A stretch of DNA of 64,000 nucleotides from Ignavibacteria bacterium. Its GTDB lineage: Bacteria; Bacteroidota; Ignavibacteria; Ignavibacteriales; Melioribacteraceae. A model generated the notes under the pieces. That model saw only the letters and a program-made list of their open reading frames with translations. It ran no database searches and had not been told where the DNA came from. The DNA is taken from assembly GCA_009773205.1 (NCBI GenBank), contig WPAE01000004.1, forward strand, positions 1 to 64,000. The letters run 5' to 3'. The position numbers were made by a program, and so were the translations under genes. Positions 30,622-44,683 of the stretch are shown here, in pieces. Position 1 is the first letter of the stretch. Every line of letters begins with the position of its first letter.

Positions 30622-31026
30622 TTATTTATTGTATTCTTTTAAAATTCTTTTTATACATCTGGAAGACGATTTTTTAATATCATACCCCCAAAGCCTAATA
30701 ACCCGCCAACCGTTTTTCCGTAATTCTTTAGTAACGATTTTATCTCGCTGTTTATTCCTATTTATTTTATTAATCCAGTAGTTCGTATTTGTTTGAGGCA
30801 TGATAAATCTTGTGGGATGTTTATGCCAAAAATCTGAATCAATGAAGACAACAATTTTTTTCCTTCGAAAAACTATATCAGGGCTGCCAATAATATTATT
30901 TGCGTGAGTTGAAAAATATATTCCAGCATTTTTCAATTCTCTCATTATTATCTTTTCAGGAATGGTTCCCTTTGAGCGAATATTTTGCATATTCTTTTTT
31001 CTTTGCGCCGGAGTTAAATTGTCCAT
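30622..31026 (-). CDS. vsr: Very short patch repair endonuclease
   Basis: A 134-residue Vsr endonuclease, which nicks at T:G mismatches made by deamination of 5-methylcytosine. Visible motifs are SKGTIPEKIIMRELKNAG, GSPDIVFRRKKIVVFIDSDFWH (catalytic Asp and metal-site residues), and the C-terminal KNGWRVIRLWGYDIKK. Vsr genes normally accompany C5-cytosine methyltransferases, as here. The start ATG shares one base with the stop of the PLD endonuclease gene. Confidence 0.95.
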   Translation of the reverse strand: MDNLTPAQRKKNMQNIRSKGTIPEKIIMRELKNAGIYFSTHANNIIGSPDIVFRRKKIVVFIDSDFWHKHPTRFIMPQTNTNYWINKINRNKQRDKIVTKELRKNGWRVIRLWGYDIKKSSSRCIKRILKEYNK

Positions 31027-32012
31027 TAGTGAGAGGAGAAATCCATATAATAATTTTCATCGTCAATTTTATAAAAAGCTACATCTGTTCTTCCATAGTG
31101 TAACAAGTTTTCTTTAGTGATAAAGGCACCATTTGCTAAACCTAAACGATGTCTGAAATATTCTCCAAGAATGCTGTTGTTATGAGGGGTTTCAATTGCT
31201 GCACCCATTTCATTTTTTTGTGCTCTCGTGCAAATAAGAGTTTTGTTATCATCAGTTAGAACAGTAAAATGTGTTGATTTGATTGGGAAAAAATCACTCC
31301 GATAAACTTCTGGGGGAAGTTGGATATATGCTTGGTTAGGTTCTCTTCCATCTCTCTGCCCCCAATTTAATCCACCCTTATTATGAATGTTTCCACTTCT
31401 GTCTAATAAAGAAACGGTTATACTTTCTAATGTCGTGAAATCTGGTTGAAAGATAGGCGTAGTTTCCGTAGCTGGAGCTTCAGCCAATTCTTTTGGTCTT
31501 CTTCGATAGACGCGGTCATTAAAAATCTGTATCAAATTTTCTGAATCTGGATGCTCACAATAAATAGAATCACCAACCATACTTTCGAAATATGTAAGGG
31601 CAGCACGACTGTCACATTCTGTTAAAACCTCTTTTTGCTTTCTTTCATTGAATGCAGTTTGAGTGTAATTTGCGGAACCAAGAAAACTCAAACGAGGTTC
31701 ATCGTCAGCTAACCAAAGATACATTTTTGAATGTGCAGGTGGTGTGATGGTTCTGTAACTGCACTGAAATCGACCACCAAAATCATTCACAATTTGTTTA
31801 AAACCATTGTGATTGCTAACAGAAATACCTTCGGCAGAACTCATACCAATGATTAATTTAATTTCAATATCTGCCCTACCAAGATTATTCAATTCAGTTA
31901 AATGGTGGAACGCCATAGCAGACGTTGCATATCCCGAAACAATTAAAAGTTTGTTACTGCCACTTTGAACAGGGTCAATAAGAATATTATTAAAAAGATT
32001 ATTTGTTATCAT
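31026..32012 (-). CDS. NgoFVII-like restriction endonuclease (PLD family)
   Basis: A 328-residue protein of the phospholipase-D superfamily of restriction enzymes. It has an N-terminal VSGYATSAMAFHHL strand-helix unit and the HKD-type catalytic segment AHSKMYLWLADDEPRLSFLGSANYTQTAF, with His, Lys and the downstream Ser/Asn. The C-terminal region (about 200-328) would carry DNA recognition. One HKD motif is present, so it should work as a dimer as in BfiI. ATG at 32012 overlaps the methyltransferase stop (ATGA), which marks original linkage of these two genes. NgoFVII cuts GCSGC; the site here is unknown. Confidence 0.85.
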   Translation of the reverse strand: MITNNLFNNILIDPVQSGSNKLLIVSGYATSAMAFHHLTELNNLGRADIEIKLIIGMSSAEGISVSNHNGFKQIVNDFGGRFQCSYRTITPPAHSKMYLWLADDEPRLSFLGSANYTQTAFNERKQKEVLTECDSRAALTYFESMVGDSIYCEHPDSENLIQIFNDRVYRRRPKELAEAPATETTPIFQPDFTTLESITVSLLDRSGNIHNKGGLNWGQRDGREPNQAYIQLPPEVYRSDFFPIKSTHFTVLTDDNKTLICTRAQKNEMGAAIETPHNNSILGEYFRHRLGLANGAFITKENLLHYGRTDVAFYKIDDENYYMDFSSH

Positions 32013-32380
32013 AGAATTCCACAAGCAGATTTTTGATATGTGTTTTCGGTCTTTTCAAAGATTGTGTATTGCTCTTTCATAGAAGAAACATTATAGATTA
32101 CTTGATGTTGGCGATGTATAAAAGGAGTTATATTACAATCAATAGAATCATATTCAATTTTTGCAAAACTTTTTAGCAAAGCCTCGAAAATAATTTTAAC
32201 GCCCATCGGAGGAACAGCCATGCCTATTTGTTTTCTTACACTTTCTTTTGAGCCGCAGAATTCAAAGTTATCTGGAAAGGTCTGTAATCTTGCTCTTTCT
32301 CTGTTGGTCAGTGCTCTATTTTCTTTCCAATGGTAAACGTGAGTTCCGCCGCCGCTGCCGGTAATTGTGTAAGAAGGTTT
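32009..32380 (-). CDS. C5-cytosine methyltransferase, C-terminal part (motifs IX-X)
   Basis: This open frame of 123 codons carries the second part of a C5 DNA methyltransferase: PSYTITGSGGGTHVYHW, RALTNRERARLQTFPDNFEF (motif IX region) and SVRKQIGMAVPPMGVKI (motif X), then a variable tail. The first part lies at 33408-34148. No ATG, GTG or TTG occurs before motif IX; TAA codons sit directly upstream (32381-32383 and 32405-32407), and the first ATG (32221) is inside motif X. The fragment is therefore either dead or started unusually (ATT or CTG). Two-subunit enzymes split at this same place are known (M.AquI), so a working heterodimer cannot be excluded. Confidence 0.75.
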   Translation of the reverse strand, partial: KPSYTITGSGGGTHVYHWKENRALTNRERARLQTFPDNFEFCGSKESVRKQIGMAVPPMGVKIIFEALLKSFAKIEYDSIDCNITPFIHRQHQVIYNVSSMKEQYTIFEKTENTYQKSACGIL

Positions 32381-32404
32381 TTAGATTTGAACCGTATAGA
32401 AGGT

Positions 32405-32650
32405 TTATTGTTGTGGTAAAATTCGGTGGATGTATTCTATAACTTCGTTTTCTCTGCTATTCGGTGAGTCTTCTTCAAGTGCATTACATTTTTCACAATG
32501 ATTTTCGGTTATTGGATGGATATAATTTTCAACACATTCGCAATCCCAATATTCCAGATTAAGAGTTATATCTCCAACTATTTCAATTCTCTCATTCATA
32601 TCATTATATACAGTTGTAAGAATTCCATCTCTCACAATTTTGTTCACCAT
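32405..32650 (-). CDS. Small Cys-rich protein within the R-M island
   Basis: An 81-residue protein I do not recognise. Its middle has possible zinc ligands (CECVENYIH, then HCEKC about 12 residues later) and its ends are acidic or helical (RENEVIEYIHRIL). The start overlaps the stop of the DUF3883-like gene by 7 bases, so it is translationally coupled. It is in the same frame as the methyltransferase C-terminal part, separated from it by two TAA codons. It may be a regulator or accessory subunit of the neighbouring nuclease; that is speculation. Confidence 0.55.
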   Translation of the reverse strand: MVNKIVRDGILTTVYNDMNERIEIVGDITLNLEYWDCECVENYIHPITENHCEKCNALEEDSPNSRENEVIEYIHRILPQQ

Positions 32651-33411
32651 TCTTTCGCTCCAACGTGATAACTTGTTTGACTAGAAGTAATAGTTTTTCT
32701 ATCAAATTGGAAATATTCTACTGGATTGAAATACAAGTTAAGCTTTGGTTCTTGTATTAAATTACTTACGACAATAAGTGCATACTCATTTTTGTATTCA
32801 CGTGCAGTCTTAAATTCCTTTTCAGTAAATCTAATTCCACCATAATTTGTTTTGATCCCTTTAATCTCTACAAGAATATATTTTCTATCAACATCAATCT
32901 GGAAATCATAACCATCGCCAAACATTCTTGCATCCTCAATTATTCCGTTGCTAAAGGGCTCAATTGATTTGTAATTATTTAGGAAATATTCTTCGGCTTC
33001 CAATCCAGTCATTTGAAGTTGTTTAAATCTAGATTTGAAAACCGGACTAACTCCTTCAACTGATAAGTCTTGTATTCTGTATTTTTCCTTTATGAACAGT
33101 TTAACAATATTACAGAACGAGAATAAATCTAAATTCCCAAATAAATTATCTATCAATATTTTTCTATGGATATAAGCATTCCCTTTTTGCCACCATCCTT
33201 TTCGTTTATTTTCAAAAAAGGGATCAAATAGATCTTGCCGATTTTTTACAGTTCCACTTGTTTCGGCAATTCCAATCTTCACTATGTAATTATAAAATTC
33301 TGTTTTTGTTTTACATCCAAAACACTTGATAAATCCCATATCGTATTTTGCTAACCCATATCCAATCAAATTGAGGATCTCATAGTTCTTATGTTTATAG
33401 TTCGAATTCAA
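32644..33411 (-). CDS. DUF3883-like nuclease candidate in R-M island
   Basis: A 255-residue protein whose C-terminal third matches the DUF3883 (NOV C-terminal) type of PD-(D/E)xK-like domain: GYDFQIDVDRKYILVEIKGIK, then GIRFTEKEFKTAREYKNEYALIVVSN. The VEIKG and upstream Asp would form the metal site. The N-terminal two thirds (about 1-140), with FGCKTKTEFYNYI and WWQKGNAYIHR, could recognise DNA. It starts with TTG, overlapping the TGA of the methyltransferase first part (TTGA). Its position inside a methyltransferase suggests that it is a restriction enzyme or an inserted defence gene. Confidence 0.7.
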   Translation of the reverse strand: MNSNYKHKNYEILNLIGYGLAKYDMGFIKCFGCKTKTEFYNYIVKIGIAETSGTVKNRQDLFDPFFENKRKGWWQKGNAYIHRKILIDNLFGNLDLFSFCNIVKLFIKEKYRIQDLSVEGVSPVFKSRFKQLQMTGLEAEEYFLNNYKSIEPFSNGIIEDARMFGDGYDFQIDVDRKYILVEIKGIKTNYGGIRFTEKEFKTAREYKNEYALIVVSNLIQEPKLNLYFNPVEYFQFDRKTITSSQTSYHVGAKEW

Positions 33412-34148
33412 GCCGCCTCTCTGAAAAAAGCATTCTCACCAGGTCTGATGTGCTTAAGTCTTTTAATCACTTGTTCTGACTGCTTAGTTAATTCATTATT
33501 AGTAGCATTTTGTAGAATAGGAGGATTTTCTATAGCATTTCTAACACTTATATCTAAATCCTTATAAAGAACTGGAGAAGGAACTCTGAAAACAATATCC
33601 AAATCTTTTCGAATTCCAATTATGATTATTCTTTGTCTTGATTGAGGAACACCATAATTATCGAACTTATATAGATGTGGGTAAACAGAATAACCAGTGT
33701 CAAATAAATCTTGCAAAATATTATTGAAAGTTTTTCCTTCGTTAGCGTTTCGCAGCCCTCCAACATTTTCAGCAAGGAACCACATTGGTTGAAATATTTT
33801 TAATGCTTTAACACCAGAAGAATATAATGGTCCATATACACCATCTATACCTTTTTGTTCACCAACAACACTAAAATCATTGCATGGAAAACCAAATGCA
33901 AGAGCATCAATTTCAGAAATATTTTTAAGAACCCTGTAATCTAATTTCCTAATATCTTTATGAATAACTGATTTCGGATTATCTGGACAAATATTTTTTA
34001 TATAAGTATTACAAGAATCCGTATCGTAATCTGTTGACCAAGCGTGCGCGATTTCAAATTTATCAAATGAGTTATTCGCTTTGGCGAGTTTTGCAGCCAA
34101 ACCAAGACCACCGGGCCCACAGAACAATTCACCAAATTTAAAAATCAT
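33408..34148 (-). CDS. C5-cytosine methyltransferase, N-terminal part (motifs I-VIII)
   Basis: A 246-residue first part of a C5 DNA methyltransferase. It has motif I FGELFCGPGGLGLAA, motif IV FGFPCNDFS (catalytic Cys), motif VI FLAENVGGL, and motif VIII QSRQRIIIIGI, then ends after RLKHIRPGENAFFREAA with a stop. Motifs IX and X are missing here and sit 1 kb downstream at 32009-32380. ATG at 34148 has AAAGG at good distance; TTG at 34181 is an alternative. The break lies where two-subunit C5 enzymes such as M.AquI are split, and the size is close to that alpha subunit. Cys and ENV are intact, so activity is possible if the second part is made. Confidence 0.9.
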   Translation of the reverse strand: MIFKFGELFCGPGGLGLAAKLAKANNSFDKFEIAHAWSTDYDTDSCNTYIKNICPDNPKSVIHKDIRKLDYRVLKNISEIDALAFGFPCNDFSVVGEQKGIDGVYGPLYSSGVKALKIFQPMWFLAENVGGLRNANEGKTFNNILQDLFDTGYSVYPHLYKFDNYGVPQSRQRIIIIGIRKDLDIVFRVPSPVLYKDLDISVRNAIENPPILQNATNNELTKQSEQVIKRLKHIRPGENAFFREAA

Positions 34149-34275
34149 ATAAGCCTTTCTTTCTTTTTTATTCCAACTCAAATATAACCTATTATTTCGT
34201 TTTCCTAAATAGAATATGGATACGCGTAACTATATGAAACGCTTTTAGAGTGCAACTCTGCCGATTCCATTACAG

Positions 34276-35445
34276 TTACATTTTTAATTTACTTTTTAAC
34301 CAGCCGGGAACCGCATCTTTGTGTACCATTATAGCAATGGTTTTTAGCCTTGCGTAAATTTCGCTCATGTACCAATAGCCATCATATTTTTTATCTTTTG
34401 TTCCCCACGAGTTTTTTACATAATAAAATTTGTAGCCGCGTTTATCTCTTGCCAATCCTGTAATGTGCATTAAGTGATCATCGGTGGTAGTTTGATTATC
34501 AAAAGATACCTGTCTCATCTCTTGTGTAATAAATTTTTCTTTAAGTGGCTCCTCGGTTTTATTCTCCGCGTTGTCTTGCTCAATATCTTCAAGCTCAACT
34601 TGAGGAATAATAGCAATCCCTTTCTTTTTATCAAAACTTTTTTCGCTTACATCTCCATCCCAAACAACAGAAAATCCTTTAGATAAAGCGGTATCAATTA
34701 AAGCAATCATTTCGTTAATTGGAATATTGTAGTACTTATCATTACTCCAGTTATCCGGAATTTCCAGAACGAACTTGGAATAAAACGGATGATGCGAGTA
34801 GGAAGTAAACTCAACGTAATCATCAGGGTTAAAATTTAGCGAATCACAAAAATTTTTAGGAGTGAAGATTCTTCCGAGATAATCAAACTTTACAGGCGGT
34901 GTTCCAAGATATATATTTAGCGTAGATTCAAAAACTTCATGCCAGCGAGGAGTAATTTTTCCGCCTTTGTTTCTTTTTACGGAGCTGACTATACCTTCCA
35001 ACACTTCTGCCATTTCTCCGTGATTGTGCTCATCTTCGCCAATATTCATTCCTTTATAATTCGCTTCGGGTATCATTCCTTTTTCGCGGATTATATTCAT
35101 TACATCGTGAGCCTGCCCGCCAACACTAAAATTTGTTGTGCCTGAATAACGAATATACTTTTGCGCTTTTAGCGGATAAGCATGGCGAACAAACCACATT
35201 GGAGAAATAAAGTGTTCTCCTTTTTTCATTCTAAGGAGTTCTGTTTCTATAAAAGATGTTGTGGCAAACGACCAGCAAGTGCCGGTTTTGGCTTGGTTTT
35301 TAACTGGTGTTGTTTTTACTTGATGAACCATCTCAAACTTGTAAACATCTTCTTCGCTTTTCTTTTTCTTGGTTTGAGTAAAAACAGAGTTATGTACAAA
35401 AAGAAATGAAATTAAAACAACCGGTAACAAACATGTTCTCTTCAT
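34276..35445 (-). CDS. Exported C1 family cysteine peptidase (bleomycin hydrolase-like)
   Basis: A 389-residue papain-superfamily peptidase with a signal peptide (LLPVVLISFLFVHNSVFTQ). The oxyanion Gln and nucleophile are in VKNQAKTGTCWSFA, the catalytic His in HLMHITGLA and the Asn in YVKNSWGTK. It resembles the C1B aminopeptidase C/bleomycin hydrolase group (GQAHDVMNIIREKGMIPEANYKG), which is usually cytoplasmic, so export is a Bacteroidota variation. ATG at 35445 gives a proper signal peptide; longer in-frame starts upstream would run into repeats. Confidence 0.88.
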   Translation of the reverse strand: MKRTCLLPVVLISFLFVHNSVFTQTKKKKSEEDVYKFEMVHQVKTTPVKNQAKTGTCWSFATTSFIETELLRMKKGEHFISPMWFVRHAYPLKAQKYIRYSGTTNFSVGGQAHDVMNIIREKGMIPEANYKGMNIGEDEHNHGEMAEVLEGIVSSVKRNKGGKITPRWHEVFESTLNIYLGTPPVKFDYLGRIFTPKNFCDSLNFNPDDYVEFTSYSHHPFYSKFVLEIPDNWSNDKYYNIPINEMIALIDTALSKGFSVVWDGDVSEKSFDKKKGIAIIPQVELEDIEQDNAENKTEEPLKEKFITQEMRQVSFDNQTTTDDHLMHITGLARDKRGYKFYYVKNSWGTKDKKYDGYWYMSEIYARLKTIAIMVHKDAVPGWLKSKLKM

Positions 35446-35508
35446 AAAGCCCCTTTTTATGTTTTGTTGATAGCAAAATAAATGTTGCTTAATTAAAAAT
35501 AAAGCCCT

Positions 35509-35700
35509 GTTTGTACTTCGCTTTCTTCGGGCAAGCGCTTTGTTCGTTAACCCTTGCCGATGTAATATAATCCGCCAGAGGCGGACGAGTGTCAAATTCC
35601 CCGCCTCTTGAGGCGAATAAATAAAATTTGTTTTCAGAAACCCCGCTGCCCCGCCTGCCAAAGCAAAGCGGCGGGCAGGTTGCGGCGGGGAGCTTCATCT
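35509..35700. repeat. Cluster of GC-rich palindromic repeats
   Basis: Several GC-rich inverted units lie in the gap 35446-36027: CTTCGGGCAAGC, TCCGCCAGAGGCGGACGAG, CCCCGCCTCTTGAGGCG, and CCCCGC...CCGCCTGCC with GGCGGGCAGG...GCGGGG. They resemble the repeats at 21500-21545 and near 24150. The remaining part of the gap (35701-36027) holds no gene that I can see; the SPFH promoter is probably there. Confidence 0.7.
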
Positions 35701-36027: not shown

Positions 36028-36993
36028 ATGTGGTTTGGAATAATAATAATCGTTGCTGTAATAATTTTTCTCTATGAGTACAGATTGAGAAAGCCGGATC
36101 AGCTTGTTTTAAAAGAATCGGACGGCAAAATTGTTTTGAACAAAACCCGTTTTTATCCAAAAGATTTTTGTCTTGTTCTTCCTAAAACAACGCTGCCATT
36201 GCAATTAAATGTTGAGTCCACAGCTAAGGGCAACCTCGATATAAAAGTAAAACTTGCGGTTACGGTTTCTCTTGCTGCTGGAAATGTTTCGCAGCTAATT
36301 AAAGTTGGCGGTTGGAATTCCAACTCGGTTACAAAAGCAGCAAAAGAATTTGAAGTTGTTCTGCAAAGTCTTGTTAAAGAGTTTACAGTGAAATATGAAA
36401 TTGAGGAACTCTCTTCTGAAAAAATTTACCACTATTTAATCGAAAGAGTTAGTGTAAGCAAAGAGCAATTTGGTTTGGATGTAATTTCGGTTTCTGTGCA
36501 GTCATTTGAAGTAGTTGATCAAAAAATTGCGGAATCTATTCGTCAGCAGGAATCTGCTAGAATACTTGAGCAGACAGAATTGTTGAACCAGAAAGCAAGA
36601 ATTACTGCTGCAAAGGCAAAACTAAAAGCAGATGAAGAAATTGCTTTTTTAGAAAACGAACTCGAATTGAAAAAGTTTGATTTAAGACGCACCGAGCTTG
36701 ATAAAGAATCTGAACTTGCCGATAAGAGAATAAAGGAAGAATTAAAGCGCAAGAAGTTGAACCTTGAGTTTGAAAAAGAGGAATTGGAAATGCTGAAGAA
36801 CAATCCGGAGTTGTTGCTGCTTTCTCCACAAGCTGCACGACTTGCAGAAGCAAGCCAAAGTTTGAAAAACGCGCGTACAGTGGTAAATCTTTCTCCAAGC
36901 GATATTGCTCAAGGTTCCGACTTGCTGAATGTTTTTCAAAATTTTTTGCTAAAGACAGTAAGCGGTTCATCAAAAAACGAAGAGAAGAAATAA
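36028..36993 (+). CDS. SPFH/band-7 domain membrane protein
   Basis: A 321-residue protein with an N-terminal transmembrane segment (about 2-16), an SPFH/band-7 domain (about 35-175) and a long charged coiled coil (about 175-265, QQESARILEQTELLNQKA onwards), ending in a helical tail (LLLLSPQAARLAEASQSL). Such proteins form membrane-bound oligomers or scaffolds (stomatin, flotillin). AGGAG precedes the ATG at 36028. The giant aminotransferase/PEPC-like gene starts 11 bases after its stop. That spacing suggests the SPFH protein may hold the giant enzyme at the membrane, but this is inference. Confidence 0.85.
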   Translation: MWFGIIIIVAVIIFLYEYRLRKPDQLVLKESDGKIVLNKTRFYPKDFCLVLPKTTLPLQLNVESTAKGNLDIKVKLAVTVSLAAGNVSQLIKVGGWNSNSVTKAAKEFEVVLQSLVKEFTVKYEIEELSSEKIYHYLIERVSVSKEQFGLDVISVSVQSFEVVDQKIAESIRQQESARILEQTELLNQKARITAAKAKLKADEEIAFLENELELKKFDLRRTELDKESELADKRIKEELKRKKLNLEFEKEELEMLKNNPELLLLSPQAARLAEASQSLKNARTVVNLSPSDIAQGSDLLNVFQNFLLKTVSGSSKNEEKK

Positions 36994-37004
36994 TTTAATT
37001 AAAG

Positions 37005-40000
37005 ATGATAATCGAAAAAGATACTTTAGAATACTTTGCGGTAAAGCAAGTAAAAGCTGCAACTGTTTCCGAGATTAGCGAGGCAACAGCTTCATCGCCT
37101 GTTCCGCCGGAAGATCGTGTAAATTTTCACATCGGAAATCCTGTGCAGGATGTGCAGCTTTCATCTGCGTATTTGAGAATTGTGAATAGAATTGACATTG
37201 CGCGTGAAGAACTAACTGATAACGATCTTGATGCTTTCCTTAAAGAATTGGGATTAGAACCCGAAGCCAAAACGGAACTTGAATTCTTTCTGGATTTAAT
37301 TAAGAAAAGCGCGCCTTATACACCACGCGGCGGGTTCAACAAAAACGCGCCAAGCTTCTTGATAAAACATTTTAATGAGTGGCTCACAAAAAATCAGCAA
37401 GAGCCACTTGCTTACGATCTTGGTGAAAAAACCGGAAGACGCGAAATTATAATTGCAACCGGCGGAGTTAACGAAGCATTACGAATGCTTCTTCACGCGC
37501 TTTCAAGTTTTCTGGTTCATAAACCTGCAAAAGTTTTTACTTATGGAATTACGCTTCCGGATCATATAAAAAATTATAACTCGCTTAGTTTTTCTTGTTT
37601 ATCCAACGACGAAGAAAAACTTGTTAGTAAACTGAAGGAAGGATTGTCAGTTTCTCAGATCAAGCCGGCTTTTCTTGTGCTTGGTAAAAACACAAAAGAA
37701 GAAACGCGAAGAGAACTTCGTCAGCTAAGTTTACAGATTCCTCTGTTTTTTGTTGAAGCTAACGATGCGCCGAATCATCTTTCTCTTGCGCGTGAAGCAA
37801 AGATGATGAACCGCGTGCTGCGTATTTTAACACCAGGAATTTTTTCTCCGGCGCTTAAGAATCTTTCAACCTTGTTTTTTGCGGGGAATCCAGAATTCAT
37901 AGAAATCATTGAGACAATTCATTTTCAGTTGAAAGGAACGCCATCGGCTTCCGAAATAGAATTGCTTTCTTACATTTTAAAGAACGATCTAGTTAAGCAG
38001 TTTGAAAGCAAGAGAGAATCTAATATTACAGTCGAAACAGAATACGACGGTTATCTATCAGAAGGAATAAACGAAGCGGCTTTTGCTTTACACACAAAAG
38101 TTTATGAAGAAAAATTTAGTTCTATCATCTCGAACAAATCGGAACGTTTTGGAGAGATTGCAGAGGGTTTGCAAGAAAAAGCAAGGTTGCTGATTTCAAA
38201 TGCAAATAAGCAGACAAATATTTATAAGTATGATCTCTTGGGCGGATTAACTGCTAACGAGCTGCTTGGCAGACTTATTTCAAATATACATTCCAAAAGT
38301 TTTGCCTCTGAGCTGGTTGATAGTTTTCTTCATTCGTTTTTAGCTCATCACACCGAGTACATAAAAAAGAATTGCTACGTAGTCAGCGGCTCATCAAGAA
38401 CCGGATTAGGATTGTTAGGCTTTCATTGCGGAATTACAGAGGTAATCTTTCCAGATTTAAGCTGGACGTACGAGCACTGTTTTCCAAAAGTTACGGTTGT
38501 TCCCTTAACAGACGCTTTTGAATTAGACATTGACGGAATAATCTCTGCAGTTAAGAAAAAATTATCTGCAGATCCGAAATGGAAAACTTACGGCGCTGTT
38601 GCTCTTAATAATCCGCATAACGCAACCGGTCAAGAATTCAACAAGTATGAATTGAAGAGACTGCTTAAGTGGCTTCTCACAAATAAAATTTTTGTGGTTG
38701 ATGATTTGTCTTATCAAAATGTTGCGCCAAAAGACTCTCTTGATGTTATAAAAACAATACGCCAATTAACCGATGAACTTGTTGAAGAAGGATACCTAAC
38801 AGAAGAAGAATCTTCTTACGCAATCACAGTTCATTCTGTTTCTAAAACAGACTCGCTTGCCGGCGCGCGTTTGTCTGTAATTGAAATTCGCCATACGGAA
38901 ATTGCAGAAAAATATAGAGATGTTCTTTCAACTATCGAACTGAATCTCGGCGCAATTTTTTTGACTTACTTGTTTTATAGAAACAAAGTTGAAACTGTTA
39001 ATGCGTACTGGCGTTTGCGCAACAGAATTTTCAAAGAAAGAAATTCTGCTTTGGCAGAAGCAGTAGAAATTTTGCCGGAAGTAAGAAACCGTTTCGACAT
39101 TTACATTAAGCCGCCAAAGGGAAGTATGTACCCGCAGATGATTATTAATCAACTTCCCGCCGGACTTTCTTTGGATTGGCTTGCTTCCGGTTTGGCGCGG
39201 CAGGGCATTGGACTTGTTCCTCTTTCAACTTTTGCAAGAACAGAAAAAGGATTTGAAGCAGGAAGAAAAACATTCCGTTTAACACTTGGCGGGACTGACA
39301 ATGCAAAAATTCTTAAGAGCAAAACAAGAAGAGTATTAATTGACTTGAACAGAATGATTGACGAAGAAGCAGCGCATTACAATAAAAAGAAATTTTCTGT
39401 ACAACCTCTTAATGTAAAAAAATCGCAAAACAAAATTGATACTGTTTCTCAATGGAAACATGTAGAAAATAATCTTAAAGATTATTTCGATGTAACACTA
39501 AAGCGTTTTGCCTCGCAGTTCAATGGAAAAATTTCAGATTCGGAAAAAATTAAAAAAGATTATCTGAATGAACGCCTTGATTTATTTAAGCAGCGTTACT
39601 TCGAAAGAACAAATTTAATTTTGGATTTATCCGATGTTATAAATGCTGACAATGGAAAAATCTTAGCGAAAACCTTAGAGAATGAATTTTATAGAGACGA
39701 TTTAGTACGCAGAGAAACAGCTTTCAAAAATAGATTATACGATAGAACTGTTCACCCGACTCAAATGTATTCCTTGAAAGCTGAGTGGGCGTTTGAAAAA
39801 CTGATCGAAAGCTTAATTCGTGGAAAAGAAATTTCGCAAACTCACTTTGAATTGCTTCGCGAAGAATTAGTAAAAGAATTTCTCGGGTTAAATGTTGCAA
39901 TTGTTTCCAATGAAGAATCCGAAGAGTTGGTTTTAGATTTGAATTCAGTTATAGCGGCAGAAAATTATTCGCAACTTTATTCTAAGCAGCCGATTGAAAC

Positions 40001-42605
40001 ATTTCTATCGTTTTGGGGCGATTGGGATGGCAGCAACAGACCAAGCGGGCAAGGGCATCGTTTGGTTGCCGCTGTTCTAATTGAGAACGTTGCTCGCCAA
40101 TCGAAGCTTATTCAGCTGCTTCATAAATATGATAAATCAATTAAAATTGATCCAACACTAATCAGTGAGATTGAAAAACTTCCTAAGAACAATAACCGCT
40201 TTACTGAACTATTCAACGAAATAAACTCGCTTACTCATCAGCTTGAAAAGCGCTATAGAGGAATTCTTCCGTTCAATGTTAAAGCGGGAAAATTCCGAAG
40301 AGTTGGAATGAAGCTGCATATTGCTCAAGATCCTCTCACTCGCTTGTGGCATCATAACGATAGAACCGAGCGTAAAATGCTTGATCTGCGCAAGCAAAGA
40401 AGAGAAACGTTAGAGTATTATTTCTCGCTAAACAAACAGATTAGAAAAACTTTGCATAGATTAATTCCGGCAATTCAAAAAAATATTTCTAATCCGGAAC
40501 TGTTGATTGAAGCCGGTACATACAAAGACTTGCTCAAACGTTTTATAATTACGCCGCGCATTCATCAAAAGTTAATTACTAATCAAGATCCTTTTGCAAT
40601 TGATACTACGGTTCACAACATCAATGAGATAAACGAAATTTCCGGCAAGTATGGCAATCCAGGAATGGTAATGGCTCTGCAAGTAAGCATGACTACTAAG
40701 CCGGATGCGCTTATTTCACTCGATAGAAAACTGCGCGCAAGCCGCGAACAAATTTTAAGAGAAACCTCTGAGGCAAATATTCCTTGTGTTTGGAGCATTC
40801 CTCTTTTTGAAGATTTGGATTCCGTGAAAAAGATTGGAGGTTTCTTAAACAAGATTTGGGAATACTCACTTCAAAGCAGAAGATTGAACCAAGATACAAG
40901 CGAGCGCTTTACAGAAATCATTACTGAAGTTTTTGTTGCAGGCTCAGATTTAAGTCAGCAAATTGGGCAAGCCGCTGGAATGAGATTTTTCAAAGAAGCC
41001 AAATATGAAGTTACGACTTGGCTTGCCGAACGTGGATTGATCGGAAAAATTAGAATGAAAATGGGAAGCGGCGAACCAATGCAGAGGCAAGGCGGATATT
41101 ACACTTCAGTTGCCGGTGCGCGCGCATTTATTCAGTCAAACGATTCTGCAAAAAGATTTGCCGCGCATCTTCAAGAATCTACAAAGAAAAGCACAGAGTA
41201 TGCAACTACACCGCTTGTTGGTGTTTTTGCCGGCGGCGATTTGAGAACATTTCAGAGTAACATTTCGGAGAAGCTGCGGTATCTGCCAGTTCATGATTTT
41301 GCTCAGCTTCTTTATCATGTAAAAGAATCACAAAAGTTTTACGAAACTGAAATTCACCGCGCAGGCGAACCTATTGTTGAAACACGCTTGCAATTCAAAA
41401 CACGCGGCTTAAAAGAATTAGAGCGTCTTACAATTGGCAAGAAAGATATAGTCTTTGATGAGTTCCTTCCCATTCTTACAGAAAACTTCAGACAGATTCT
41501 TTACGGAAGAGAAGAAGATGTAGTTGGCATTCACATAATTTCTTATTTCATTGGAAGAACAACGCCGCCGCTAAGAGACCGTCCAACTGTTCGTCCGGGA
41601 CAAAACGTTGGCGGAAGCGCCGGACAAAAAATTTTAGAAAAGATTGCCGGTACAATTCCATTTTCAAAATATGGAAGTTTGCTTCGCGCAATTTCTCATA
41701 ATCAATCTCAAACTGTCGTGCTGGGAATAAATCAACTTACAACCGGATTATTTCGTGCGCTCGATGAATTTTCTCAAAAGCAGAACACAGAAGCATCTTT
41801 GCTAATTGCCGATAGAATTTTACCTAATCTGCCTGTGTACGAAATTCTTCACACGCTTCGTATCTATCACGATGTAGGTTTGACTTATCTCAACAAACTT
41901 GAAAAAGCTTTTCCGGCTGGAAACTCGGCTCTGATTGCTTTGCGTGAAGATGTTGACGCGATTAAAAAATATCTGCCGCTGTTCCAAAGAGAGCTTTTGC
42001 GCAGGCATGGAATTGATGTAAACGACTTCTTTGAGAAAGATAAATTTATAGTTGATCTGCTTCCAACTCTCCGCGCAGATGTTGCGGTTTTACTTCAGCC
42101 GGATTTATTTAACACAAGTGTTGAAAAACTATTTTCGCAAATCAGCGGCAATGTTGAGAAAAATTGGCAGGAAGAAATAAAAGAACTTCTCGAAATCCCG
42201 AAGAAAGTTCAGCAATGGCGTGCTGAAATTTGGAATCTGCTCGAGCAGCCCGTTTTTCAACGTGTAGCAAGTTTTGTTGAACTTGCCATAGCGCTTCATT
42301 CTCTATCTGCAAATAGTTTTTCAAAAGAAAATTTGTTTTCAGCAAAGAAAGCTAAAACGCCTCAGATGCCAAGCCTTTCGCAAGCATCGGCTGATGAGAA
42401 CATGCATCAGTTTTTAGGCGCTGCAATGGAATATCTCTCAGCAGTTTCTCAAGAAATGGTTGAGGTGCCGATTAATATAATTCGTGCGCTAAAAGAAGCC
42501 GAGAGAATTATAAAGATTGAAGAGCAAGCGCTCACTTCGAGACAACAAGATATGCTCAGATTTTATTTGCTTCAAATTGCCCGGCTAACCGGAGAGAATG
42601 GGTAA
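37005..42605 (+). CDS. Giant fusion: tandem aminotransferase folds plus PEPC-like region
   Basis: A single 1866-residue frame. Residues about 35-400 look like a degenerate class I aminotransferase (FHIGNPVQD, ATGGVNEAL at 151) lacking the PLP lysine. Residues about 440-790 are an intact one: VSGSSRTGLG (459), LNNPHNATG (533), VVDDLSYQN (566), the PLP lysine in SVSKTDSLAGARLS (Lys614) and the carboxylate-binding Arg in FRLTLGG (757). Residues about 800-1866 resemble phosphoenolpyruvate carboxylase: TVHPTQ (His917) for TAHPTE, FWGDWDGSNRP (1003) for WMGGDRDGNP, AGSD (1312) and GSGEPMQRQGG (1353) for the glycine loop. Several PEPC positions are altered, so activity is uncertain. If both halves work, PEP and bicarbonate could give oxaloacetate and then aspartate. 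It is probably cotranscribed with the SPFH gene. Confidence 0.75.
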   Translation: MIIEKDTLEYFAVKQVKAATVSEISEATASSPVPPEDRVNFHIGNPVQDVQLSSAYLRIVNRIDIAREELTDNDLDAFLKELGLEPEAKTELEFFLDLIKKSAPYTPRGGFNKNAPSFLIKHFNEWLTKNQQEPLAYDLGEKTGRREIIIATGGVNEALRMLLHALSSFLVHKPAKVFTYGITLPDHIKNYNSLSFSCLSNDEEKLVSKLKEGLSVSQIKPAFLVLGKNTKEETRRELRQLSLQIPLFFVEANDAPNHLSLAREAKMMNRVLRILTPGIFSPALKNLSTLFFAGNPEFIEIIETIHFQLKGTPSASEIELLSYILKNDLVKQFESKRESNITVETEYDGYLSEGINEAAFALHTKVYEEKFSSIISNKSERFGEIAEGLQEKARLLISNANKQTNIYKYDLLGGLTANELLGRLISNIHSKSFASELVDSFLHSFLAHHTEYIKKNCYVVSGSSRTGLGLLGFHCGITEVIFPDLSWTYEHCFPKVTVVPLTDAFELDIDGIISAVKKKLSADPKWKTYGAVALNNPHNATGQEFNKYELKRLLKWLLTNKIFVVDDLSYQNVAPKDSLDVIKTIRQLTDELVEEGYLTEEESSYAITVHSVSKTDSLAGARLSVIEIRHTEIAEKYRDVLSTIELNLGAIFLTYLFYRNKVETVNAYWRLRNRIFKERNSALAEAVEILPEVRNRFDIYIKPPKGSMYPQMIINQLPAGLSLDWLASGLARQGIGLVPLSTFARTEKGFEAGRKTFRLTLGGTDNAKILKSKTRRVLIDLNRMIDEEAAHYNKKKFSVQPLNVKKSQNKIDTVSQWKHVENNLKDYFDVTLKRFASQFNGKISDSEKIKKDYLNERLDLFKQRYFERTNLILDLSDVINADNGKILAKTLENEFYRDDLVRRETAFKNRLYDRTVHPTQMYSLKAEWAFEKLIESLIRGKEISQTHFELLREELVKEFLGLNVAIVSNEESEELVLDLNSVIAAENYSQLYSKQPIETFLSFWGDWDGSNRPSGQGHRLVAAVLIENVARQSKLIQLLHKYDKSIKIDPTLISEIEKLPKNNNRFTELFNEINSLTHQLEKRYRGILPFNVKAGKFRRVGMKLHIAQDPLTRLWHHNDRTERKMLDLRKQRRETLEYYFSLNKQIRKTLHRLIPAIQKNISNPELLIEAGTYKDLLKRFIITPRIHQKLITNQDPFAIDTTVHNINEINEISGKYGNPGMVMALQVSMTTKPDALISLDRKLRASREQILRETSEANIPCVWSIPLFEDLDSVKKIGGFLNKIWEYSLQSRRLNQDTSERFTEIITEVFVAGSDLSQQIGQAAGMRFFKEAKYEVTTWLAERGLIGKIRMKMGSGEPMQRQGGYYTSVAGARAFIQSNDSAKRFAAHLQESTKKSTEYATTPLVGVFAGGDLRTFQSNISEKLRYLPVHDFAQLLYHVKESQKFYETEIHRAGEPIVETRLQFKTRGLKELERLTIGKKDIVFDEFLPILTENFRQILYGREEDVVGIHIISYFIGRTTPPLRDRPTVRPGQNVGGSAGQKILEKIAGTIPFSKYGSLLRAISHNQSQTVVLGINQLTTGLFRALDEFSQKQNTEASLLIADRILPNLPVYEILHTLRIYHDVGLTYLNKLEKAFPAGNSALIALREDVDAIKKYLPLFQRELLRRHGIDVNDFFEKDKFIVDLLPTLRADVAVLLQPDLFNTSVEKLFSQISGNVEKNWQEEIKELLEIPKKVQQWRAEIWNLLEQPVFQRVASFVELAIALHSLSANSFSKENLFSAKKAKTPQMPSLSQASADENMHQFLGAAMEYLSAVSQEMVEVPINIIRALKEAERIIKIEEQALTSRQQDMLRFYLLQIARLTGENG

Positions 42606-44029: not shown

Positions 44030-44683
44030 CTAAATACAAGATTTAACTATCTTAATGTACTCAGCCAATTTTTCTTCATCCAACTTTCCACCTGTTCTAA
44101 CTCCGGAGCAAATATCTACGCCGTACGGATGAACAAGTTCTACTGCGCTTTTCACATTTGCCGGATTCAAACCGCCTGCTAAGTAAACCGGAACCGAAAC
44201 ACTTTCCACTATTTGTTTGCTAAGATCCCAGTTGTGAGTTCTTCCCGTTCCACCTAATTCTTTAACAGCAAGTTTTTGATTTCCAGAATCGAGCAATAGC
44301 GCATCAGCAGTGTTGGCAGCAGTAATTGCCTCAGCAACCGAATCATCATCTATCACGTGAATTACTTGTACAACTTTTACATCGGGTAATTCACTTTTGA
44401 TATCGTCATAAGTTCCTTCTACTAAAGAATCACAAATTTGCACAGTAGAAGTTCTGCAAATTTTTAATTGCTGTACAATCTCTTCAACACTTCTTTTACT
44501 TGTAAGCAAAAAGGTATCAGTTTTTCCAGTAATAGCTTTGGAGATTTCGACTATTGTCTCAAAATCAATTACACCGGGACCGCTTGGCATTTCGGAAACA
44601 AGCCCTATTGCATCTGCGCCCTGTTTTATTGCAAGCTCTGCCTCTTGAATGCTTGAGATACAGCAGATTTTAATTTTTGTCAT
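44030..44683 (-). CDS. trpF: Phosphoribosylanthranilate isomerase-like protein
   Basis: A 217-residue TIM barrel of the TrpF family, which isomerises phosphoribosylanthranilate in tryptophan synthesis. It keeps the general-base Cys in KICCIS (family KICGIT) and the Asp in LLLDSG, and has GGTGRTHNW and the phosphate-binding AGGLNPANV and GVDICSGVRT. The conserved Gly of KICG is Cys here. No other trp gene is nearby, so it may be a stand-alone isomerase with the PriA/HisA-like problem of unknown substrate or a true TrpF encoded apart. It overlaps the acetyltransferase gene by 14 bases. Confidence 0.85.
   Translation of the reverse strand: MTKIKICCISSIQEAELAIKQGADAIGLVSEMPSGPGVIDFETIVEISKAITGKTDTFLLTSKRSVEEIVQQLKICRTSTVQICDSLVEGTYDDIKSELPDVKVVQVIHVIDDDSVAEAITAANTADALLLDSGNQKLAVKELGGTGRTHNWDLSKQIVESVSVPVYLAGGLNPANVKSAVELVHPYGVDICSGVRTGGKLDEEKLAEYIKIVKSCI

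Follow-up and report, generated by a model that had tools for sequence, protein, structure and literature searches.

A tandem aminotransferase–PEPC-like fusion protein obligately paired with an SPFH protein in Ignavibacteria, possibly a membrane-tethered enzyme leading from PEP to aspartate

The window analysed here (the whole stretch of 64,000 nucleotides) belongs to a 4.14 Mb genome of the class Ignavibacteria, for which Stygiobacter is the closest named relative found. Two open reading frames lie in tandem on the forward strand, the first coding for 321 and the second for 1866 amino acids, with only 11 nt between them (Table 1). Upstream of this pair a papain-like protease gene is transcribed divergently and downstream a TPR gene is transcribed convergently, so the gene order suggests that the pair forms a separate transcription unit. 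No third conserved gene was found beside the pair among the other loci compared. The protease gene (34276-35661, minus strand) codes for a papain-like (C1) peptidase, and a related gene (L097:6188-7396, plus strand) lies near a free-standing tandem aminotransferase of genome G077 that is described below; this may be a coincidence. Just upstream, a restriction-modification cluster (30622-34181, minus strand) encodes a Vsr nickase, an NgoFVII-like PLD restriction enzyme, a NOV_C-domain protein and a C5 cytosine methylase. The latter matches positions 1-217 of the 324 profile positions, its C-terminal part appearing truncated. At 44030-44683 (minus strand) there is a divergent phosphoribosylanthranilate isomerase gene (PRAI, TrpF-like); no other trp gene was seen in the neighbouring ORFs scanned.

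Table 1. The gene pair and the domains and motifs assigned to its products (window positions; residues numbered in the fusion protein; equivalences to E. coli PEPC are assignments from alignment or motif)
Feature	Position	Strand	Basis
SPFH/Band_7-type membrane protein, 321 aa	36028..36993	+	ORF; Band_7 matches in family; position directly upstream of fusion; co-occurrence
Aminotransferase-aminotransferase-PEPC-like fusion, 1866 aa	37005..42605	+	ORF, ortholog alignment
Degenerate aminotransferase lobe, residues 1-335	37005..38009	+	model, alternating strand/helix order, motif invariance
Intact class I aminotransferase lobe, residues 410-795	38232..39389	+	PF00155, Foldseek, invariant residues
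Lys614 codon, PLP Schiff-base lysine in SKTDxxAGAR	38844..38846	+	52/52 orthologs
Divergent PEPC domain, residues 815-1866	39447..42602	+	Foldseek PDB matches; weak PF00311/PF14010 in orthologs
TVHPTQ, residues 915-920, His917 = E. coli PEPC His138	39747..39764	+	52/52; TAHPTE/Q in PEPC, QHPDN in 3odm
GDWDGSNRP, residues 1005-1013, GGDRDGNP of bacterial PEPC	40017..40043	+	near-invariant
TPRIHQ, residues 1183-1188, candidate DIRQ (Arg396) counterpart	40551..40568	+	R1185, Q1188 invariant; partial alignment, register uncertain
PLFED, residues 1266-1270, Glu1269 = Mg ligand Glu506	40800..40814	+	hhalign; PLVED in 3odm
SDLSQ, residues 1314-1318, Asp1315 = Mg ligand Asp543, Gln1318 at Lys546	40944..40958	+	hhalign; RSDTAM in 3odm
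GSGEPMQRQGG, residues 1354-1364, Arg1361 = Arg587	41064..41096	+	R1361 51/51; GCGSLPFRG in 3odm
RDRP...LRAI, residues 1524-1563, Arg1526 = Arg699, Arg1561 = Arg713	41574..41693	+	47/47 each; local alignment
C-terminal ENG, terminal Gly = PEPC RNTG/QNTG-COOH counterpart	42594..42602	+	49/52 3' ends

A sequence-only reading had described the larger product as one polypeptide that joins a degenerate aminotransferase, a complete PLP aminotransferase and a PEPC-like region. The open reading frames are as described, Lys614 and the PEPC-type motifs lie where that reading had placed them, and the arrangement is conserved in 52 orthologs. Relatives of the fusion were found in 24 of 97 relatives' genomes, in 12 of 297 genomes sampled across the phylum (all 12 from the same class) and in 55 of the 391 genomes searched within the class; two further matches among the 97 relatives (G031 and G089, E about 1e-4) are ordinary aminotransferases and were left out. 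Thus the family is confined to the class Ignavibacteria in the genomes searched, where its full length is conserved, and no plasmid relatives were found. For the one scan of all GTDB species the seeds were exact peptides from one sequence only, and distant relatives may therefore exist outside the class.

In the alignment of the 52 orthologs, which reach down to 38% pairwise identity, Lys614, TVHPTQ with His917, GDWDGSNRP and GSGEPMQRQGG are invariant or nearly so, and we therefore rejected chance, a sequencing error or an annotation artefact as the source of the fusion. The PEPC half is better conserved than the aminotransferase half (mean identity 55% vs 50%), which argues that it is not decaying. 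In five genomes the fusion gene seems to be split or interrupted at varied points (L095 in G051, L096 in G050, L149 in G442, L145 in G539 and L147 in G531); these are probably frameshifts or assembly errors, but some of them may be true gene breakage.

Residues 1-795 contain two class I aminotransferase lobes in tandem, the first degenerate and the second intact with Lys614. PF00155 (class I/II aminotransferase) matches residues 446-765 with an E value of 6e-14 and 52.4 bits (cut-off 19.7), and a template-free model of residues 1-814 built from 27 orthologs (pLDDT 84.9, pTM 0.84) retrieves class I aminotransferases from the PDB in a Foldseek search (E 3.6e-14). The PF00155 score, the PLP lysine and the fold all place this part among the class I/II aminotransferases, although it is far below every NCBIfam subfamily cut-off. 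The residues for PLP and for both substrate carboxylates are invariant in the orthologs: judged by the spacing from Lys614, we take Lys614, Asp567, Tyr570, Asn539, Arg622 and Arg758, each invariant where present, to be the counterparts of Lys258, Asp222, Tyr225, Asn194, Arg266 and Arg386 of AspAT.

The first lobe (residues 1-335), of the large-domain type, has no PLP lysine when the register at this position is set by eye, and carries the invariant motifs NFHIGNP (40-46) and YxPRGG (Y105), which resemble the N-terminal arm and the Tyr70 segment that one AspAT subunit contributes to the other. A profile comparison of the two lobes gave no significant homology, and the assignment of the N-terminal lobe therefore rests on the predicted fold and the motifs. 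The simplest reading is that the lobes are not two enzymes but pair within the chain as a pseudodimer, with one PLP site composed from both. Compared with the known class I aminotransferases (PF00155; AspAT, prephenate aminotransferase) the fold, the PLP lysine and the carboxylate-binding arginines are shared, whereas the tandem arrangement in a single chain and the first lobe without lysine set the fusion apart from them.

The nearest free-standing relative of this tandem part, and the only one found, is a protein of 652 aa in genome G077 (contig C202, L097:1861-3816) with the same two lobes and 37-39% identity in the catalytic lobe, but without a PEPC domain and without an SPFH partner. Its operon (L097:1861-5950) also contains DAHP synthase and TyrA (prephenate dehydrogenase), which suggests aromatic substrates for this branch and is a hint against aspartate as the substrate of the fusion. 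The protein is likely an aromatic-pathway relative of the aminotransferase half of the fusion. In the 297 genomes sampled across the phylum no free-standing tandem aminotransferase was found, the fusion itself aside.

The C-terminal domain is very divergent. The window protein gave no match above the Pfam threshold to PF00311 or PF14010, and a few orthologs gave weak ones (PF00311: E 7e-5 to 7e-4, at best 18.1-20.1 bits vs a cut-off of 22.4; PF14010: E 0.007-0.07, at best 15.3 bits vs a cut-off of 25). A TPR/substrate-binding-like protein in G071, which is unrelated, reached 18.6 bits on PF00311 and is thus level with some of the fusion matches; we had considered it as a second PEPC-like protein of this genome and rejected it as a chance match. 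With hhalign the E value against bacterial PEPC was 0.04-0.06, and among 60 column-shuffled PEPC profiles one scored as high as the real one; the global alignment was uninformative and the local one borderline against the shuffles, the isolated barrel segment reaching E 0.0015. A PDB sequence search with the profile of the PEPC half had no matches at E<=10. Such scores therefore do not prove a PEPC, and the assignment rests mainly on the fold, the register and order of the motifs and the C-terminal glycine.

The predicted structure of this domain is of moderate confidence (pLDDT 72, pTM 0.68). Searched with Foldseek against 350,542 PDB chains it gave 11 matches with E<0.001, all of them PEPCs of the plant and the archaeal type (8ojq from plant, E 4.5e-7; 3odm of the archaeal type, E 4.5e-5), as would be expected if the region is PEPC-like, as had been proposed from the sequence.

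Seven motifs follow each other in the order known from PEPC, most of them near the C-terminal end of a predicted strand and invariant in up to 52 orthologs. Three pairs are aligned by hhalign (PLFED/PLFET, SDLSQ/SDSNK and GSGEPMQRQGG/GRGGSISRGGG for fusion/PEPC), and TVHPTQ, GDWDG, RDRP and LRAI are arranged in PEPC order around these barrel motifs. His917, Glu1269, Asp1315, Arg1361, Arg1526 and Arg1561 are invariant where present and correspond to His138, Glu506, Asp543, Arg587, Arg699 and Arg713, the register of Arg699 being set by the motif only. Loss of the histidine, the arginine or the glycine-loop positions in orthologs would speak against a PEPC; they are kept across the alignment. The final residue is glycine in 49 of 52 3' ends (ARLTGENG and similar), and the remaining three seem to be frames that are broken or contain gaps, so that all intact 3' ends have the glycine. 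In PEPC the C-terminal QNTG tetrapeptide is needed for maximal activity (PMC8342391).

Three residues of E. coli PEPC are replaced in the fusion, Lys546 by Gln1318, His579 by Met, Leu or Ile at position 1353 and Arg581 by Ser, Cys or Asn at position 1355, and the sequence-only reading had considered that such altered motifs might mean a new reaction. The archaeal-type PEPC 3odm, in the stretches that were matched in PDB searches with short motif-like queries, has RSDTAM and LGCGSLPFRG at these places and also lacks Lys546, His579 and Arg581, while its QHPDN, PLVED and LGMPPELMGMGRALNEI are close to TVHPTQ, PLFED and LGINQLTTGLFRALDEF of the fusion. The altered motifs therefore do not imply a loss of function, and the case for a new reaction is weakened.

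With the bacterial and plant PEPCs (PF00311; E. coli Ppc, 1FIY/1QB4) the domain has in common the fold, the order of the motifs (TAHPTE/Q, GDxDG, PLFE, SD, GxG..R.GG, RP, LRAI and the C-terminal Gly) and a similar length (about 1050 vs 883 aa), but it stays below the Pfam cut-off, has the three replacements, is fused to an aminotransferase and is linked to an SPFH protein. With the archaeal type (PF14010; 3ODM) it shares the fold, HPD/HPT, PLVED/PLFED, an SD without Lys at +3, the LGCG/(L/M)GSG loop without His/Arg and the G..RAL.E segment, whereas the archaeal type is not fused and has only about 530 aa; with subunits of 55-60 kDa (PMC8100219) it is of another size than the fusion domain. Because a bacterial-size length is combined with archaeal-like substitutions, we would place the C-terminal domain, which is very divergent, in a third PEPC lineage.

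The smaller protein is built of an N-terminal transmembrane segment, the sequence RLRK, an SPFH domain, a coiled coil and a conserved C-terminal PQAARLAEASQSLKNARTVV; since RLRK follows the transmembrane segment, the positive-inside rule predicts a cytosolic SPFH domain. The window protein alone is below the Pfam threshold for Band_7, but PF01145 (Band_7) is recognised in 26 of the 38 members of the family, with E values down to 1.3e-9. This agrees with the SPFH protein proposed from the sequence at a distance of 11 bases. Across the genomes surveyed the co-occurrence is near-perfect, a stronger link than could be known from one sequence. The SPFH family is present in 24/24 fusion-bearing and in 0/73 fusion-less genomes among the 97 relatives, and 54 of the 391 class genomes have both genes and 335 neither, the exceptions (G535 with the fusion only, G489 with the SPFH gene only) being at contig edges; these counts are not phylogenetically independent. 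Wherever the contig extends far enough the SPFH gene lies immediately upstream of the fusion. Four apparent fusion loci without it turned out to be gene-caller misses with the SPFH gene directly upstream, and an apparent SPFH-fusion single gene in G580 is due to an assembly gap of Ns. The pairwise distances of the two proteins are correlated with r=0.93. As the distribution is patchy, both genes appear to have been lost or transferred jointly and repeatedly.

Prokaryotic SPFH proteins (flotillin/stomatin-like) fall into 12 subfamilies (PMC2636767); that paper uses neither the word aminotransferase nor the word carboxylase. The protein described here resembles them in its single N-terminal membrane segment, SPFH domain and coiled coil, but its partner is a metabolic enzyme and not NfeD or an FtsH system.

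In the window genome a profile search found neither a PF00311 PEPC nor a pyruvate carboxylase. An ATP-dependent PEP carboxykinase gene lies next to an AspAT-like aminotransferase gene on another contig (C214) than the fusion, and in four genomes (L088, L089, L095, L096) genes for PEP carboxykinase and an AspAT-like aminotransferase are found close downstream of the fusion. Because the window genome has PEP carboxykinase, it could obtain oxaloacetate without the fusion. Canonical PEPC is present together with the fusion in three genomes, and mutual exclusion of the two was not significant (p about 0.07-0.11). The neighbourhood of PEP carboxykinase and AspAT, the lack of PEPC and pyruvate carboxylase and the retained catalytic residues favour a route from PEP and bicarbonate through oxaloacetate to aspartate.

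The best explanation, to which we give an even chance, is a bifunctional, SPFH-scaffolded enzyme; its PEPC domain would be of a third type, and it would make oxaloacetate from PEP and aspartate from oxaloacetate. The SPFH protein would reside in the inner membrane, face the cytosol, oligomerise and hold the giant enzyme there, and we consider physical contact of the two proteins at the membrane likely. The PEPC domain would carboxylate PEP with bicarbonate by means of His917, the invariant arginines and Mg2+ on Glu1269/Asp1315, the C-terminal glycine completing the active site; that PEP is carboxylated here appears somewhat more likely than not. Oxaloacetate would then be passed to the aminotransferase part, in which the N-terminal lobe would be the inactive half of the intramolecular dimer and the second lobe, with PLP on Lys614, would make aspartate with glutamate as donor. 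For oxaloacetate and aspartate as the coupled pair we see slightly less than an even chance.

It is rather unlikely that the PEPC fold runs another reaction on PEP, on another enol phosphate or on a 2-keto acid, and that the aminotransferase uses the product (an aromatic keto acid, say, or another that does not lead to aspartate), so that an unknown compound derived from an amino acid is made at the membrane. The replaced bicarbonate-site residues of bacterial PEPC would fit, but archaeal-type PEPC carries the same replacements and is known to carboxylate PEP. Also in favour are invariant residues that are new in the fusion, among them Glu1357, Met1359, Trp1007 and Arg1012, the place of its closest free-standing relative in the DAHP synthase-prephenate dehydrogenase operon, and the patchy, lineage-restricted distribution; against this stand the retention of the catalytic His, the Mg ligands, Arg587/699/713 and the C-terminal Gly, and the PEP carboxykinase/AspAT neighbourhood in four genomes.

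PEPCs bind PEP, aspartate or malate allosterically, and the domain could be a non-catalytic sensor of one of these that regulates the aminotransferase, the SPFH protein reporting or localising the signal. Lys546, His579 and Arg581 are not conserved and we found no published precedent for a coupled enzyme, but the terminal Gly and the residues of the active site are under stricter conservation than other positions, and the aminotransferase half is less well conserved than this domain, a pattern unlike that of typical pseudoenzymes, which makes a sensor improbable. A defence or stress system in place of a metabolic enzyme is suggested by the patchy distribution and the restriction-modification cluster in the window; as neither protein has a PADLOC match, the other loci are without a conserved third gene and there is no plasmid match, we regard it as very improbable.

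The sequence-only reading knew of no described system of this kind, and in the openly licensed literature we found no description of such a fusion or of its pairing with an SPFH protein. Each domain belongs to a known superfamily, and the combined system is, as far as can be told, undescribed. The full proposal, a third class of PEPC that channels PEP and bicarbonate to aspartate within one polypeptide as an obligately SPFH-scaffolded, membrane-tethered carbon-fixing enzyme, is tentative, and we judge it less probable than its parts. If it is true, there is a third PEPC lineage that has kept the catalytic core and combines archaeal-like substitutions with a long bacterial-size domain, and nature would hold a PEP-to-aspartate channelling enzyme relevant to carbon fixation and to the biosynthesis of the aspartate family. 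Bacterial SPFH proteins, few of whose clients are known, would gain a soluble enzyme as a specific partner with an obligate genetic link, and the scaffold function of SPFH proteins would become directly testable.
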